From positions 1 through 64,000 of the forward strand of contig CADCCQ010000006.1 in the NCBI GenBank assembly GCA_902799955.1: DNA of 64,000 nucleotides, read 5' to 3'. This DNA comes from an uncultured bacterium. GTDB lineage: Bacteria > Verrucomicrobiota > Kiritimatiellia > RFP12 > UBA1067. Shown here piece after piece: positions 709 to 31,278 of this stretch. Made by a program: the position numbers and the translations under genes. Position 1 is the stretch's first letter. Every line of letters begins with the position of its first letter. The notes under the pieces were generated by a model. The model was not told the DNA's origin. It was given only the letters and a program-made list of their open reading frames with translations, and made no database searches.

Positions 709-1821
709 CTACAGCTTCTTCAGCACGCCCCTTATCGAGCGCTCGCGCGCCTCGACGGACTCGCACAGGCGGAACTGCACGCGGGCGCGGTTGAGGTTCT
801 GCTCCGGCTGCGTCGTCTTGAAGTAGACGTTGCCCGCGAGGTAGTCCTGGAAGAACCGCAGGCCTAGCTCGAACGGCAGCAGGCGGATCGCGTCGAAGAG
901 GTGCTCCCTGTCGGCATCCGTCATGAACGCGCCGGCCTCGCGCATGTACCCCTTGCAGAAGGCCGTTGCCAGGTCCTCGTCGAAGACGACCTTCGAGAGG
1001 TTCGTCTCCTCCTCGCCCGCCGGGTTGCAGATGGAGCGCAGCGCGTCGCCGAAGTCGATGTGGATGAGGCCGGGCGAGACGGTGTCGAGGTCGATGACCG
1101 CCGTGCCCTTGCCGGTCACGTCGTCGATCATTATGTTGTTGACCTTCGGGTCGCCGTGGAACATCCTCTTGACTAGCTCCCCGGCCTTCTCCGCCTTCTC
1201 CAGGCAAAGGGCGAAGTCGCGGCGCTCCTCGACGAACTTCGCCAGGCGCTTCGCCTCCATGGAAGCGCCGAGCAGCTCCTTCGCGCCCGCCGTCGCGAGC
1301 GTCGCGTCGTAGGCGGCGAGGTAGCCGCTGGTGATGTGGAAGCCGGGAAGGGGGTCCTTTATCGTCGCCGGGTCCATGTCGCTGATCAGGTAGTGGAAGT
1401 GGCCCAGCGCGGCGCCGCACTCCATCGCGTGCTCCGGGCCCTGCGCAACGTCGAAGGCGTGGGCGGACATTATCCTCGTTATGACGCGCCAGACCTCGCC
1501 GGATTCGTCGACCACGTAGTCCTGCGAGTCCTTCGCCTTGATGATCCTCGGCATCTGCCACACGCGGTCGTCGCGCCCCGCGAGCGCGTCGGCCTCGAGC
1601 TTCTCGTGGCAGTGCTTGGTGACGTTGTGCATGTTCTCCATGATCATTTCGGGGCACGGGAACACCTTGCGGTTCACCTTCTGGAGGATGACCTGCGTCT
1701 CCGTGAAGGTGTTGCGGTATATCGCGAGGAACGTGTCGTTGATGTTGCCGTTGCCGAACGGCTGCAGCGACACGAGCCTTCCCTTGATGTTGAACTTGTT
1801 TACGAGGACGGACAGCTCCAT
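709..1821 (-). CDS. NahK-like phosphotransferase (aminoglycoside-phosphotransferase fold sugar kinase)
   Basis: The 370-aa product belongs to the APH/choline-kinase-fold sugar kinases best known from N-acetylhexosamine 1-kinase (NahK). The N-terminal nucleotide-binding loop reads GNGNINDTF (about residues 23-31). The catalytic loop is HGDPKVNNIM and the metal site is DLDTVSPG. It probably phosphorylates a free sugar or amino sugar at C1 in the cytoplasm, but the substrate cannot be read from sequence. A good Shine-Dalgarno (GTGGAGGTG) precedes the ATG. It lies 28 nt behind the permease-kinase fusion and is probably cotranscribed with it. A paralogue lies at 30238-31278. Confidence 0.85.
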   Translation of the reverse strand: MELSVLVNKFNIKGRLVSLQPFGNGNINDTFLAIYRNTFTETQVILQKVNRKVFPCPEMIMENMHNVTKHCHEKLEADALAGRDDRVWQMPRIIKAKDSQDYVVDESGEVWRVITRIMSAHAFDVAQGPEHAMECGAALGHFHYLISDMDPATIKDPLPGFHITSGYLAAYDATLATAGAKELLGASMEAKRLAKFVEERRDFALCLEKAEKAGELVKRMFHGDPKVNNIMIDDVTGKGTAVIDLDTVSPGLIHIDFGDALRSICNPAGEEETNLSKVVFDEDLATAFCKGYMREAGAFMTDADREHLFDAIRLLPFELGLRFFQDYLAGNVYFKTTQPEQNLNRARVQFRLCESVEARERSIRGVLKKL

Positions 1822-1849: not shown

Positions 1850-4819
1850 CTAGGGATTCAGAATTGTCTTCAGCTTGTCTACCGTGATTGGCTTCAGGAG
1901 GATTCCCGAGTAGCCGGGGGACTCCGATTTCTTCAGCATCTCGACGTCGGCGGTGACGATGTGGACAGACAGCCCGGCGAGCCTCTCGTCGCCGCGGATG
2001 GCCTTCACGAGGCCCTCGCCGTCGAGCTTCGGCATCCACATGTCGGTCAGCACGAGGTCGAAGGGCTCTCCCCGCGGGTCTTCGAGCGCCTTCATCGCCT
2101 CCGCGCCGTTGGCGGCCATCACGATGTCGAAGTCGCCGAGCTTCTTGAGCATGGCCTTGAGCACCATCAGGTTCATCTTCTGGTCGTCGACGATGAGAAT
2201 GCGTCTTGCGCGATGTCCTTTGGAGGCAGTCGGCGCCGCCGGTCTTCCTGCAGTCGTCGGAGCTTCCGGCTTCCCCGGAAGTGCCGGGCCTTCCGTGGCT
2301 TCCGGGGTCTCCGTCATTTCAAAGTCTTCCGGGGCCAGTGTGATGCCATGCGGCTCGTCGACTGGCTTTTCGTCGCTTGTCTTCACGCCGGGGATCGTCA
2401 CGGTGAACGTCGAGCCCTTGCCGAGCGTCGAGGCGATGGTCAGCTCTCCGCCCATGGCGGAGGCGAGCTGTGTGCAGATGGCGAGGCCGAGGCCGGTGCC
2501 GCCGTGGCGAGCCAGCTTCGATCGGACCTGCACGTACGGCGAGGCTATCCGCTTCATGTCGCCCTTGCTGATCCCGCATCCGGTGTCCTCGACCTCGATG
2601 CGCAGCGTGCCGGTCTTCGCGTCGGCGCCTGCCCTTGTGAACGACCCGCGCACCTCGACGAATCCGGATTGCGTGAACTTCGCGGCGTTGCCCACGAGGT
2701 TGAACAGTATCTGCCGGATGCGCTGCGGGTCGATCATGAGGACTGGCATCTCGTCGGTGCGCCGGCGGAACTCCAGCGCCGGGTTCTTGTTCGCGATTCG
2801 GAACGCATCCTCCATGCTCGCGAGGAGCTTCACGAAGTCCGTGGGCTCCGGGACGATCTCCATGCGTCCGTCCTCGAGCTTGGAGAAGTCCAGCACGTCG
2901 TTGACGAGGTTCAGCAGGGTCTTGCTGCTTACGAGGATCGAGTCAACTGCCTGTTCGCGGTCGGTCTTCTCCTGGATCCCCATCTTGAGCATTTCAGAGA
3001 AGCCGATGATCGCGTTGAGGGGCGTTCGTATGTCGTGGCTCACGGTGGAGAAGAAGTAGCTCTTCGACCTGCTGGCGCTCTCCTCGGCCTTGAGCTTTTC
3101 GTCGATCAGGCGCTTCTCGCGCCTGCGCAGAATCGAGAAGAGGTTGAGCATTATCGCGAGGGACGCGACGAGCAGGCACAGCTCGATGACGGACTTCAGC
3201 AACATGTCGCGCTCGATGTGCCTCGCCAGCAATGCGTACGTCTCCCTGTCGAACATCTTGCCTACGTATCCGCCGAGGGCTGCCTCGGTCGAGTCGCAGA
3301 GCGTGAGGCGGAACCACATGATCGAGGAGAAGAAGATCACGACGATGACGCCGACCCACACGACGATGGAGCGCCCGAACCATCTGTGCCTGTCAAGCCG
3401 GAAGACGCGCCTGTAGAGGAGGATGCCGAGGATGCACCAGATGGCGAGGAGGAAGTACGACTCCGCCGAGAGGGTGTTGCCGGAGAGGTAGTTGGGCACG
3501 AGCATCAGCAGGCAGAACACCACGGCCATGACGACGCCGCAGACGCCGGAGGCCTTGGCGAGCACGCCCGTCTCGCCCTCGCGCCGGCTGATTTCGTACG
3601 CGGCGGCCGAGACGTAGCCGTAGGCGATGGCGGCGCCGAGGTTCGAGACGTCCACCGGCCACCCGGTGACGGTGCGCCCGAAGAACGGTATCGCGAGCGA
3701 GGCGAGCATCACGAACACTATGGCGTTGGCGGGAGTGCCGTCGCGGTTGATCGCGCCGAACCAGCGAGGGACCATCTTGCCGCGCGACATCGCGCACAGG
3801 AGGCGGCTTGTCGCGACATACGTCGCGAAGATGCCCGTAAGCTGCGCGGCGAGCATCGTCCCGCCGAGGAGCGCCGTCCCGGTCACGCCGAGCGTCCGGC
3901 GCACCGTCGCGAACACGGGCACGGCGTCGGCGCCGACGAGCTCGGGGAGCGCCTTGATGTACTCCTGCCACGTGGAGAACCGCTCCGGCAGGGCGAGCAC
4001 GGGGACCATCGTCAGGAGAATGTACACCAGCGCGGACAGGACGATCGCCGCGATCATCAGCGGCAGCGTGCGCTTTACCGGGAACTTGAACTCCCCCGAC
4101 GAGTGGACCACGGCCTCGAAGCCGACGAACGCCCACGGGATCATCGCGAGGATGCGCAGGATCTGGACCGCCGGGGGCCCGTCGGACGAGAACGCGGGCG
4201 CCATCGAGGCGAGCCCGCCTTGGTGCCTGAAGAGCGCGGCGACGAAGCACGTCGCCACGCCCAGCACCATGACGGCGGCGAGCGCGGTGTGGATGCCGAT
4301 GGCGAGGCGCTTGCCGATGAGGCACAGCACGCCGCACAGCACGATGACGGCCGAGCAGAAGATCGCCTCCCCGAAGTACACGTCGAATCCCACCATCGTG
4401 TAGTGGAAGCCGAACTGCAGCACGTCGCCCAGGACGCAGCGCGTCATGATGACGAGCGCGGTGGAGTTCGCCCACATGATCGCGATGTACGTTATGAACA
4501 GGAACCAGCCGACGAGGAAGCCGTGGTCCGCGCCGAACGCCTTTGTGACGAAACCGTACGCGCCGCCGGGGCCTGGCCTGCGGATGACGAGCCTGTAGTA
4601 GTTCAGGGCGAAGACGGACATCGCGGCCGTGCCGACCATGATGCCGATCAGCGTCCCCAGCGGCCCGGCGTCGGGGAGGAACTGCGTCCCCGGCAGGACG
4701 AACGCGCCCCAGCCCACGGCATAGCCGAAGGCAAGCGCAACCATGGCCACGGGCGACATGTATGCGCCAAGGCCGGTGTTCTGCGAGGCACCGTCTGAAT
4801 TGGGTCTCGTGTCTTTCAT
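1850..4819 (-). CDS. amino-acid permease fused to hybrid histidine kinase (transporter-sensor kinase)
   Basis: The 989-aa product joins two machines. About residues 15-480 form an APC-superfamily amino-acid/polyamine permease with roughly a dozen hydrophobic segments and the family's GWGAFVLPG-type first helix. One or two more membrane segments follow (about 485-570). Then come a HisKA dimerisation domain with H595 in SHDIRTPLN, a HATPase_c domain (NLVGNAAKF, DTGCGIS, GGTGLGL), a Pro/Glu/Thr-rich linker (about 830-870) and a receiver domain with phospho-acceptor D926 in LTDMWMPK. The likely role is to sense or carry a ligand through the permease and signal by phosphorelay, as in the CbrA-type SLC5-kinase fusions; here the transporter part is APC instead. 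No DNA-binding partner lies next to it. Confidence 0.88.
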   Translation of the reverse strand: MKDTRPNSDGASQNTGLGAYMSPVAMVALAFGYAVGWGAFVLPGTQFLPDAGPLGTLIGIMVGTAAMSVFALNYYRLVIRRPGPGGAYGFVTKAFGADHGFLVGWFLFITYIAIMWANSTALVIMTRCVLGDVLQFGFHYTMVGFDVYFGEAIFCSAVIVLCGVLCLIGKRLAIGIHTALAAVMVLGVATCFVAALFRHQGGLASMAPAFSSDGPPAVQILRILAMIPWAFVGFEAVVHSSGEFKFPVKRTLPLMIAAIVLSALVYILLTMVPVLALPERFSTWQEYIKALPELVGADAVPVFATVRRTLGVTGTALLGGTMLAAQLTGIFATYVATSRLLCAMSRGKMVPRWFGAINRDGTPANAIVFVMLASLAIPFFGRTVTGWPVDVSNLGAAIAYGYVSAAAYEISRREGETGVLAKASGVCGVVMAVVFCLLMLVPNYLSGNTLSAESYFLLAIWCILGILLYRRVFRLDRHRWFGRSIVVWVGVIVVIFFSSIMWFRLTLCDSTEAALGGYVGKMFDRETYALLARHIERDMLLKSVIELCLLVASLAIMLNLFSILRRREKRLIDEKLKAEESASRSKSYFFSTVSHDIRTPLNAIIGFSEMLKMGIQEKTDREQAVDSILVSSKTLLNLVNDVLDFSKLEDGRMEIVPEPTDFVKLLASMEDAFRIANKNPALEFRRRTDEMPVLMIDPQRIRQILFNLVGNAAKFTQSGFVEVRGSFTRAGADAKTGTLRIEVEDTGCGISKGDMKRIASPYVQVRSKLARHGGTGLGLAICTQLASAMGGELTIASTLGKGSTFTVTIPGVKTSDEKPVDEPHGITLAPEDFEMTETPEATEGPALPGKPEAPTTAGRPAAPTASKGHRARRILIVDDQKMNLMVLKAMLKKLGDFDIVMAANGAEAMKALEDPRGEPFDLVLTDMWMPKLDGEGLVKAIRGDERLAGLSVHIVTADVEMLKKSESPGYSGILLKPITVDKLKTILNP

Positions 4820-4833
4820 ATCTATTCTCTACT

Positions 4834-4839
4834 ATTATA
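4834..4839 (-). promoter_or_regulatory. -10 box for the permease-kinase fusion
   Basis: TATAAT on the minus strand ends 14 nt before the ATG at 4819. A weak AAGACA lies 17 nt upstream as -35. The predicted leader is about 7 nt and has no Shine-Dalgarno. Confidence 0.55.
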
Positions 4840-4941
4840 TCACAACTAGGCGTTGTTGTCTTGCCTTCATTGCATTTTAACTTCCACCGGAGATTTACGG
4901 AAGTAAACCCGTAGCACACACCACAAACGCCGCTGGGGAGG

Positions 4942-4971
4942 TTGACAAATCATGCGGGAGTGTGTTATAAT
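4942..4971 (+). promoter_or_regulatory. consensus sigma-70-type promoter
   Basis: A perfect TTGACA (4942-4947) and a perfect TATAAT (4966-4971) are separated by 18 nt. This is the best housekeeping promoter in the window. It reads toward the esterase gene at 5285, leaving a 5' leader of roughly 305 nt, or it drives a separate small RNA ending at the hairpin at 5181-5238. Confidence 0.75.
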
Positions 4972-5284: not shown

Positions 5285-8200
5285 ATGAGAAAACAAACAT
5301 GGAAAGCCGCAGTCTCGGCGGCGGCGATCTGCGCAGCGGCGGCGTTGCCGTCGTGGGCGGCGACCGTGGCATGGAAGAGCAATGCCCAGGGCTACATGAA
5401 CGTGGCGTCAAACTGGACGGGCGACGCCTTGCCGCAGGACGGCGACACGCTGGACATGAGCATCCTGACGACCCCATCCAACATGTACGTGGGCGACTTC
5501 GGGGACGAGCGCAGGTTCGAGACGATGACATTGTGGCGGACATCCGGCCAGCTGGTGCTGCGGGATGGTACGCTGCGTCTTCAATACCTCACATATTCCT
5601 CCGGCTCGGTTTTCGGGTTGAGTAGTGCCGTCGTTCTGGACGTTTCGGGCAAGATTACGTCAACGGGATCGCGTTTCTTCGCCGGATGCGGCGATGGGAC
5701 CGTCATTGCCGGCGAGATCGAGCATGCTGGTAGTGCGAACGCCGCTTTTTGTAATTCGTCGTCGTCCAGCGGCGGGCTTTTCGTCAAGACGGGCAAGTTC
5801 ACGATTTCCAATTCAGGATATCTGTCGCTTTCGTCGGCAGGCAATAATTCAAGCTATGGTGTGAATTATGTTGTCGGGGCTGGCGGGCTGTCGTTCGGCG
5901 ACGGCGCGACGAGCAGTGCCTTTTACCAGAATTCCAATAAAAACAAGGTGCGCATAGATCCGTCCGCAGACTATACGCTCGCGGTCAATCCCGCGCGTGA
6001 AAGTGCGATGGGGGACAACCTCGCGTTCATGTGCCACGAATCGACGACGTACTTCGGCACGACCGACTACTACGACAACACGCAGCCCCGTACCGTGACG
6101 TTCGCCGGCGGCATCGGCGCGGATAGTACCTCGGGACGCAACGTGATTGTGGATGGAATCGGAACGCTCGTGTTCAACGCCTGCAAGAGCGGCAGCCACG
6201 AGTTCAACGGCGCCTTGACGGTGAAGGACACGGCGACGCTTCTTCTGCTCGACACCGCCGCACCCGGCAAGGGGACGAAGACTTTCGAAGGCGGCACGAC
6301 GTTCAAGGTGGAGCAGACGAGCCCGACGGGAATCGTGACGCTTAAGGGCTCGCTCACGCTCGCGGCGAATTCGACGCTGGAGTTCGTCCTCGCGGCGAAT
6401 GCCACGACGTCGGCGTTGAGGGTCGCAACACTCGCGCTGCCTGCGTCGGGGACGGTCAAGGTGAAGCTTTCGGAGACTGCCTCGGGCAGGTATTCACTTG
6501 TGGAGAATCTGCCAAGCGGCACCACGGCAGACAAGTTCACCGCAGTTTACGACAGCAATGGTGCATCTATTGTGTCCCTTTACGTTGAGGACGACAGGCT
6601 CATAGCCGTAGTATCCAAGAAGGCAATCTGGAAGAGCAATGTCGCGGGCGACATGAGCGATTCCACAAAGTGGGTCGATGATTACGTGCCGCAGGACGGC
6701 GACACGCCGGACCTCCGGGTGATTGCGTCGAGCCAGAAGAACGTCTATATACCCGACTTCGGCGACGAGCGCAGGTTCGAGACGCTTCTGCACAACGGCA
6801 ACGTCATGCTGCGCTCGGCCGACGGTCCCGCGACGAACATGCTGCGACTCGCGTACCTCACCTATTCCGCCGGCACCACCTTCGGCCTCGGCGGAGCCGC
6901 CGGGCTTGATGTCGCGGGGAAGCTGAAGTTCACCGGTCAGGAGAAATGCTTTGGCGGATGTGGCGCGGTAGTCGTCAAGGCAGACGAGTTTGAGCAAGCA
7001 GGACTACCAGCGTTCATTTGCGCCTCCTCCTCTTTTGCCTCACCGCTCGGCGTCACGGTTCGGAAGTTCACGATTTCAGGAAGTACCTTGTATCTGACGA
7101 CCGCCGGTAACAACAACGGATACGGCGTGAAGTATGTCGTGGGATCTGGCGGTTTCACTTTTGCAGATGGATGTAAAGCCTCTGACTACTACGCCGTGAG
7201 ATATGCGACAAACTCAGCGCGCATCGATCCCTCAGCAGACTATTCGATCGGCGTCAACCCGTTGAACGCCAACAATTATTCATTCAGGAACCTCTCGTCC
7301 ACCGTTTATTTTGGCACGACGGACGCCAACGACCACGAGACGCCGCGTACCGTTACGTGCGAGGGAGGCATTGGCGGGGAATCGTCCGATGCCAACGCCA
7401 ATATGTATGTTGACGGGAATGGAACTTTAGTTTTCAACTCGGCGACGGGCACATACCGCTACCCAGGAAAACTCTCTGTGCGGGATACCGCCACACTGCT
7501 TCTGCGCGACACGGCGACGACTGGCATCGGCCCCATGACGTTCAACGCCGGTACGACGTTCAAGGTGGAGCAGACGAGCGCGAACGGAATCGTGGAGCTG
7601 GGAGGCGCACTCACGCTTGCGGCGAATTCGACGCTGGAGTTCGACCTTGCGGAGAATTCCGCCACGTCTGCGTTGAAGGTCGCGAGCCTCACGATGCCCG
7701 CGTCGGGCAAGGTGCGGGTGAAGGCGTCGGGAGTGGGCAGAGGTGCCAGCGTGGTGCTCATCGACAATCTTCCAGCCGGGACGAAGGCAAGTCAGTTTGA
7801 GTTTGTGGGAAAGCCATACGACAATGCGACGCTCGTTGTGTGCAACAACAAGTTGATGGTTGACAGGGCAAAGGGGCTAGTGATCATTATCGCTGGCGGG
7901 AAATCGGCTTCGCCTGCACCCGTCACGGCGAAGATCCTATTCGCGGGCGATTCCACGCTTGACGACTACGGCCGCGTCGTGAATCCGTTTGCAAGCTGGG
8001 GTACGACGCTTGAGGATTTCATGCGCTCCGGCTGCAGCGTGGACAACTATGCCAAGAGCGGCGCATCGACCAAGAGCTTCCGGGCGAACGGATACTGGAG
8101 TTCGCTTTTGGCGGCCATCAGACCGGGGGATTTTGTCGGCATCCAGTTCGGTCACAACGACCAGAAGGCGGGATCGAACTTTGCCGCGCCAGACGGCTTG

Positions 8201-30237: not shown

Positions 30238-31278
30238 ATGTCCAACCGCACATACACACAGGAGGAGCTCCGCTCCACGCTCGCCGCGATGGGCGTGGCG
30301 GACGCGACGTCCGTCGAGCGCTACGGCTCCGGGCACATCAACGACACGTTCAAGGTGGAGACGGCCGCGGGCCCGCGCTTCATCCTCCAGCGCGTGACCG
30401 ACGCGTTCGACAAGGACGTCCTGAAGGAGAACATAATCCGCGTCACGGACCACCTCAAGAACAAGGGCGTGAAGACGCTCGAGGTCGTCGCCTACGAGAA
30501 CCCCTGGCGCATCTACAAGTTCCTCGAGGGGTACGAGTCGGTGGACGTCATATCCGAGCCGTCGCAGGCCGAGCTCGCGGCGGGCGCGTTCGCGGCGTTC
30601 CAGAACGCGCTGGCGGACATGCCGCCGCCGCCGCTGAGGGCGGTGATCCCGCGCTTCCACGACACGGTCGACCGCCTGCGCCTCCTCGACGAGGCCGCGG
30701 CGGCCGACGTCAAGGGGCGCAGGGCGTCCGTCGCGAAGGAGCTCGCGTTCGTCGACGCGCACCGCGCCGAGGCCGGGAAGGTGCTCGCGCTCATGGCGTC
30801 CGGCGACATCCCCGAGCGCATCACGCACAACGACACGAAGATCAACAACGTGATGATGGCGTCCGACGGCTCGAACGTCGTGATCGACCTCGACACGACC
30901 ATGCCCGGCTCGGCGCTCTACGACTTCGGCGACATGGTGCGCACCTCGACCGCGGCGGCGGCAGAGGACGAGAAGGACCTCTCGAAGGTCTACTCGAAGA
31001 AGGAGTACTTCGAGGCTCTTGTGCGCGGCTACCTCGCGGGGGCGAAGTTCCTCAACGAGGCGGAGCTCGAGAACCTCGCGTTCTCCGGTCGGCTCATCAC
31101 GTTCACGATCGGCATACGCTTCCTCACCGACTACCTCGCCGGCGACACGTACTTCCACACCGCCTACCCGGACCACAACCTCGTGCGCTGCCACACGCAG
31201 TTCAAGATGGTCGAGTCCATGGAGGCGCAGAGCGCGGAGTACGAGCGCATCGTGCGCGAGGCCGCGAAGGGGATGTGA
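30238..31278 (+). CDS. NahK-like N-acetylhexosamine 1-kinase
   Basis: The 346-aa product is a second APH-fold sugar kinase, with YGSGHINDTF at residues 28-37, the catalytic loop THNDTKINNVM and DLDTTMPGS. Its place between a nucleotidyltransferase and nagB supports an amino-sugar substrate such as GlcNAc or GalNAc. GGAGG precedes the ATG. It is only moderately similar to the paralogue at 709-1821, mainly at these motifs and in the YLAG-YF segment near the C-terminus. Confidence 0.87.
   Translation: MSNRTYTQEELRSTLAAMGVADATSVERYGSGHINDTFKVETAAGPRFILQRVTDAFDKDVLKENIIRVTDHLKNKGVKTLEVVAYENPWRIYKFLEGYESVDVISEPSQAELAAGAFAAFQNALADMPPPPLRAVIPRFHDTVDRLRLLDEAAAADVKGRRASVAKELAFVDAHRAEAGKVLALMASGDIPERITHNDTKINNVMMASDGSNVVIDLDTTMPGSALYDFGDMVRTSTAAAAEDEKDLSKVYSKKEYFEALVRGYLAGAKFLNEAELENLAFSGRLITFTIGIRFLTDYLAGDTYFHTAYPDHNLVRCHTQFKMVESMEAQSAEYERIVREAAKGM

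Follow-up and report, generated by a model that had tools for sequence, protein, structure and literature searches.

An APC permease fused to a hybrid histidine kinase in Kiritimatiellia, a probable transceptor kinase linked to surface polysaccharide genes

A single frame of 989 amino acids (1850..4819, minus strand, ATG start) joining an APC permease to a hybrid histidine kinase was identified in the window, the 64,000-nucleotide stretch of DNA of an uncultured Kiritimatiellia bacterium analysed here. The fusion protein probably works as an APC-type transceptor kinase, which would feed a partner switch similar to HptB-HsbR-HsbA controlling surface polysaccharide.

The domain content of the protein was analysed with Pfam, and all four matches exceeded the curated gathering cut-offs. 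On the minus strand, AA_permease_2 covers residues 24-466 (3422..4750; E 2e-20, 73.4 bits against a cut-off of 27), HisKA/DHp residues 586-651 (2867..3064; E 5e-20), HATPase_c residues 697-810 (2390..2731; E 6.5e-26) and Response_reg residues 874-987 (1859..2200; E 5e-17). The phospho-acceptor H595 (3035..3037, minus strand), N711, D745, G747, G749, the G774/G776/G778 motif and D879 are invariant across the 44 aligned fusions, and the N, G1 and G2 boxes are intact. The receiver phospho-acceptor D926 (2042..2044, minus strand) and K976 are present in all 43 ungapped sequences reaching those positions. The HisKA, HATPase_c and receiver domains with their H, N, G1, G2, D and K residues identify a hybrid histidine kinase, and as judged from the alignment its kinase part has all the residues needed for activity. 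The permease profile score together with a predicted LeuT fold of 12 TM helices places the N-terminal part in the APC permease family. A preliminary description had proposed a complete APC permease, HisKA (H595), HATPase_c and receiver (D926) in one frame, and the Pfam and alignment results bear this out. A promoter-like AAGACA-17-TATAAT sequence (4834..4862, minus strand; consensus match only) lies 5' of the gene. On the opposite strand a perfect sigma-70 consensus, TTGACA-18-TATAAT with TG ahead (4942-4971), was observed about 310 bases 5' of a divergent gene at 5285.

The structure was modelled with AlphaFold2 from the family alignment (pLDDT 84.7). The permease model superposed on AdiC over 422 residues with Z 43.0 and rmsd 2.9; the two share 17% identity and recognisable TM1 and TM6 motifs, and the fusion differs from AdiC by the added TM13-TM14 and kinase. 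The model, hydropathy and conservation delimited a coupling unit at residues 476-585 (3065..3394, minus strand) made of TM13, a variable loop, TM14 and a signal helix. Hydrophobic segments were found by hydropathy at 485-503 and 540-558. Between TM12 and the DHp the model has just two helices, 486-516 and 525-612, the latter running unbroken through TM14, the signal helix and H595; neither Pfam nor the model revealed a STAC, HAMP or PAS domain between permease and kinase. TM14 is followed by the stretch RRREKR, which agrees with a cytoplasmic kinase. TM13 carries the motif FFSSxxWxR with W502 invariant and R504 in 43 of 44 fusions, and FFS/TxxxWxR-like motifs occur also in Bacillota fusions, even where the kinase is otherwise divergent or degenerate. 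TM1, TM3, TM6 and TM10 contribute to the substrate site of AdiC-type APC transporters. In the fusion alignment these helices showed conservation of 0.69-0.77 against a permease average of 0.61, and the periplasmic TM13-TM14 loop is poorly conserved (mean 0.31).

The distribution of the fusion was searched in the window's own phylum and in Bacillota. The permease-kinase joint is uninterrupted in the window and the same one-frame joint was found in loci from other public genomes, amounting to 46 non-redundant proteins by ORF analysis. Since the joint recurs in tens of independently assembled genomes of two phyla, an assembly chimera of two genes can be ruled out, and the sequencing error at the joint against which the preliminary description had advised a check finds no support. 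Its suggestion to look for the same fusion in related genomes was fruitful: 20 of 58 close relatives carry it (the own genome counted, with three copies), and within the phylum it extends to seven families or more (f1, f4, f6, f15, f42, f48 and f54). Rumen and sheep omasum are the sources of several relatives. Across Bacillota the fusion is rare (3 of 398 sampled genomes, judged by frame length); in one order hits to a Bacillota fusion with E <= 1e-60 were obtained in 105 of 189 genomes, with frames of about 830-1060 amino acids in most matches, permease and kinase confirmed by Pfam on examples, and a receiver in five of the six proteins scanned. Among the best-scoring 5000 of 72,556 plasmid records, none covers 80% of the fusion protein.

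The evolution of the permease part was then examined with trees. The 49 fused domains grouped apart from standalone relatives with support of 100/99, and in an enlarged tree all 56 fused permeases of both phyla fell on one side of a branch with SH-aLRT 99. In this enlarged quick tree sequences from the two phyla are intermixed, a pattern suggestive of horizontal transfer. Residue 235 is glutamate in 49 of 49 fused permeases scored and aspartate in 91% of the standalone relatives. Compared with the window fusion, the proteins of L016/L017 retain 60-61% identity in the permease and 48-49% in the linker against only 32-33% in the kinase, and the range for L016/L017 and L046b/L047b together is 52-61% for the permease against only 32-38% for the kinase. 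As the permease stays similar while the kinase diverges, the permease with TM13-TM14 moves as one sensory unit, kinase modules having been swapped just behind the linker. A split version was found in genome G037, where the permease, the hybrid kinase and a PP2C-type protein are encoded by three adjacent genes in this order; the permease branches as the sister of the fused clade, and the third gene matches the REC-PP2C-HATPase regulator described below from its residue 45 onward. Read together as sequence comparisons, the clade, the split version and the swaps show that the joint has been selected and say nothing on what is sensed.

The genes around the fusions point to the output. A fusion paralog of the own genome (C4, 34-37 kb) lies within a Wzx/Wzy-type exopolysaccharide cluster holding genes for a flippase, Wzy, export, WecG, a sugar-transferase, a hybrid kinase with SBP_bac_3, a STAS protein, a REC-SpoIIE-HATPase_c_2 regulator and an Hpt protein, the last 64 bp from the regulator gene. 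Clusters similar by sequence likeness, in which Hpt, REC-PP2C-HATPase regulator and STAS genes are likewise linked to a fusion, were found in G012 and G032. Of the 20 fusion genomes 18 possess the regulator, compared with 4 of the 38 without a fusion (Fisher 2.5e-9), and the co-occurrence holds inside the genus (Fisher 3e-5), both values ignoring shared ancestry; no REC-PP2C regulator was detected in the fusion genomes G004 and G034. Nine genomes have fusion and regulator within 13 kb of each other, with Hpt 64-145 bp from the regulator. In the congener G034 a 59%-identical homologue of the window protein's own subclade is followed directly by an Hpt gene, an order that ties this subclade homologue directly to an Hpt. 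A longer-tailed fusion (L047:11351-14881) has an Hpt domain behind the receiver in the same chain, which is consistent with the proposed relay, and L046:5084-8431 is of similar length. Other fusions adjoin genes for GT4 glycosyltransferases, a Stealth protein, polysaccharide export and Wzy, or a beta-barrel protein. The window copy itself lies outside the polysaccharide cluster. The Hpt of C4 is the single one detected by profile search in the own genome, which is 92% complete, and the real partner of the window fusion could also be an Hpt that has diverged beyond the reach of the profile or is encoded on missing contigs. Bacillota fusions adjoin other genes such as REC-CheB, and the output of the fusion therefore probably differs between lineages.

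Two further neighbours were noted. The hybrid kinase beside the fusion paralog (L042:13103-16207, at 39-42 kb of C4 in G000) has an SBP_bac_3-like sensor region, so a single Hpt may receive input from two sensors of different kinds. Genes for a conserved, predicted secreted beta-barrel outer-membrane protein (C2; L009:6107-6985, L010:10943-11800, L046:2719-3546 and others) occur near fusions in seven genomes, directly behind them in five; the product gave a weak MipA match and porin-like folds at low TM score. As a core part of the system C2 was rejected, being clade-specific.

The proposed mechanism follows the order of these parts. The LeuT-fold permease would bind a small amino-acid- or amine-like solute, with transport either kept or lost, and its conformational change would be passed to TM13 and TM14. 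TM14, continuing as one helix into the DHp, would set the autophosphorylation of H595, from which phosphate would move to D926 of the receiver, then to the stand-alone Hpt and on to the REC-PP2C-HATPase regulator. By partner switching, as in HptB-HsbR-HsbA, the regulator would act on the STAS protein, and this step would control the genes of surface polysaccharide synthesis. In the biofilm control of Pseudomonas aeruginosa, HptB acts on HsbR, which has HsbA as its partner (PMC6482189), a system in which likewise several hybrid kinases converge on one Hpt, a regulator combining REC, PP2C and kinase/anti-sigma domains, and an anti-sigma antagonist. The regulator found here has the domain order of HsbR. 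The present system differs in that its sensors include APC-permease and SBP_bac_3 hybrids and its genes lie in an exopolysaccharide cluster. Sequence establishes the domains, catalytic residues, modelled fold, clade and gene linkage, and the steps of the pathway are inferred from them.

The nature of the solute was approached through the standalone Bacillota relatives of the permease. Their genes adjoin those of Xsc (over the cut-off), class III aminotransferases and alanine dehydrogenase, surroundings that make taurine, or some other small amino acid or amine, a conceivable ligand. Taurine was kept merely as a lead, as these relatives share only about 31% identity with the fusion permease and Xsc was absent from all 58 relatives searched. 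That absence, with E235 in place of the standalone aspartate, indicates that the specificity may have shifted in the fusions.

The same observations bear on whether the protein could be an ordinary amino-acid importer whose kinase reports flux in the manner of CbrA, with genes of amino-acid catabolism or uptake rather than polysaccharide as output. CbrA transports histidine (PMC7918813), the TM1 and TM6 motifs are retained in the fusion, and the catabolic surroundings of the standalone relatives fit such a role. However, no catabolic or uptake gene was seen to recur next to the fusions, the recurrent neighbours being Hpt, regulator, glycosyltransferase, export and outer-membrane genes, and Xsc is missing from the 58 relatives; this reading is considered unlikely. 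It could also be argued that the permease now just anchors the protein in the membrane or senses the state of the membrane, keeping its fold and sensing no solute; Ks-Amt5 shows that transport can be lost in a fused transporter (PMC5764959), and the TM13-TM14 loop is poorly conserved. The elevated conservation of TM1, TM3, TM6 and TM10 would be needless in an inert anchor, rendering this explanation quite improbable.

A third possibility starts from the gene next to the fusion. An N-acetylhexosamine 1-kinase-like protein of 370 amino acids (709..1821, minus strand), which aligned over residues 7-367 with solved N-acetylhexosamine 1-kinases at E 6e-48, is encoded 28 nt 3' of the fusion stop on the same strand with a good ribosome-binding site, and nothing else lies close to the window fusion. 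An operon is plausible and co-transcription likely, and the preliminary description was right about the kind of protein and reasonable about the operon; it had further hinted that amine or amino-acid sensing is tied to sugar phosphorylation. The nahK gene is a core gene of the genus, kept at 80-91% identity in nearly all congeners with or without the fusion, the region upstream of it differs among the five relatives inspected, and its adjacency to the fusion was observed in the own genome only. A general link is therefore not supported, and despite the close spacing one functional unit joining amino-acid or amine sensing to HexNAc phosphorylation has very little probability. A second, distant homologue of the NahK/APH family (35% identity) was noted at 30502-31248 on the plus strand. 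The transceptor kinase acting on surface polysaccharide is retained as the preferred, probable reading.

Transporter-kinase fusions described in the literature are the SLC5-STAC kinases and Ks-Amt5 (PMC7918813, PMC5764959). CbrA and CrbS (MxtR) resemble the window protein in having a LeuT-fold transporter N-terminal to a histidine kinase, CrbS/MxtR being likewise hybrid, and the APC superfamily includes SSS as well as APC transporters (PMC7918813). The fusion differs from them by its APC-family AA_permease_2 domain, the lack of STAC and PAS, and the direct coupling of TM13-TM14 into the DHp. Residues 24-469 matched only AA_permease and AA_permease_2, no SSS family at E <= 0.01 being found by Pfam, and in place of a four-helix STAC bundle the model has two helices with no Pfam domain between transporter and kinase; the distinction from the sodium/solute symporter (CbrA) type drawn in the preliminary description is thereby confirmed. 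In Ks-Amt5, too, the transporter leads straight into the kinase with no HAMP, PAS or STAC in between (PMC5764959), but this protein has a trimeric, ammonium-specific Amt fold and ends at the kinase, a separate protein serving as its response regulator. No Amt domain was found in the fusion by Pfam. The earlier reservation that such fusions might be already common and described holds in its first half, as seen in the Bacillota order; a description of an APC permease-histidine kinase protein was not found in the open-access literature searched, which leaves most subscription papers outside, and these genes may already carry a name from automatic annotation. The fusion thus appears to be undescribed.

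Additional permease fusions were observed in Bacillota. L088, L089 and L115 hold tandem pairs of APC-kinase fusions of about 830 amino acids without receiver, with a CheB-type gene upstream in L088 and L089. Because one partner (L088 393-2909, L089 4503-6935) lost residues of the N and G2 boxes and kept the H-box histidine, its sequence suggests heteromeric kinases with a pseudokinase half. In Eubacterium sp. MSJ-13 (L096:4752-6854) an APC permease is joined to a cytidylate-kinase-like domain (PF13189).

The transporter-kinase fusions known so far are few, and the APC-family class recurs in the Verrucomicrobiota/Kiritimatiellota group and is common in one order of Bacillota. Whether it forms a separate transceptor class is slightly on the doubtful side of even; in such a class an APC permease would have become a receptor by gaining TM13-TM14, a form common to two phyla, with interchangeable kinases and a partner-switch relay setting surface polysaccharide by an amino-acid or amine signal. 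The split, fused, kinase-swapped and half-degenerate versions offer a natural system for how a LeuT-fold transporter signals, and the proposed relay provides a testable path from nutrient sensing to coat synthesis in mostly uncultured bacteria.
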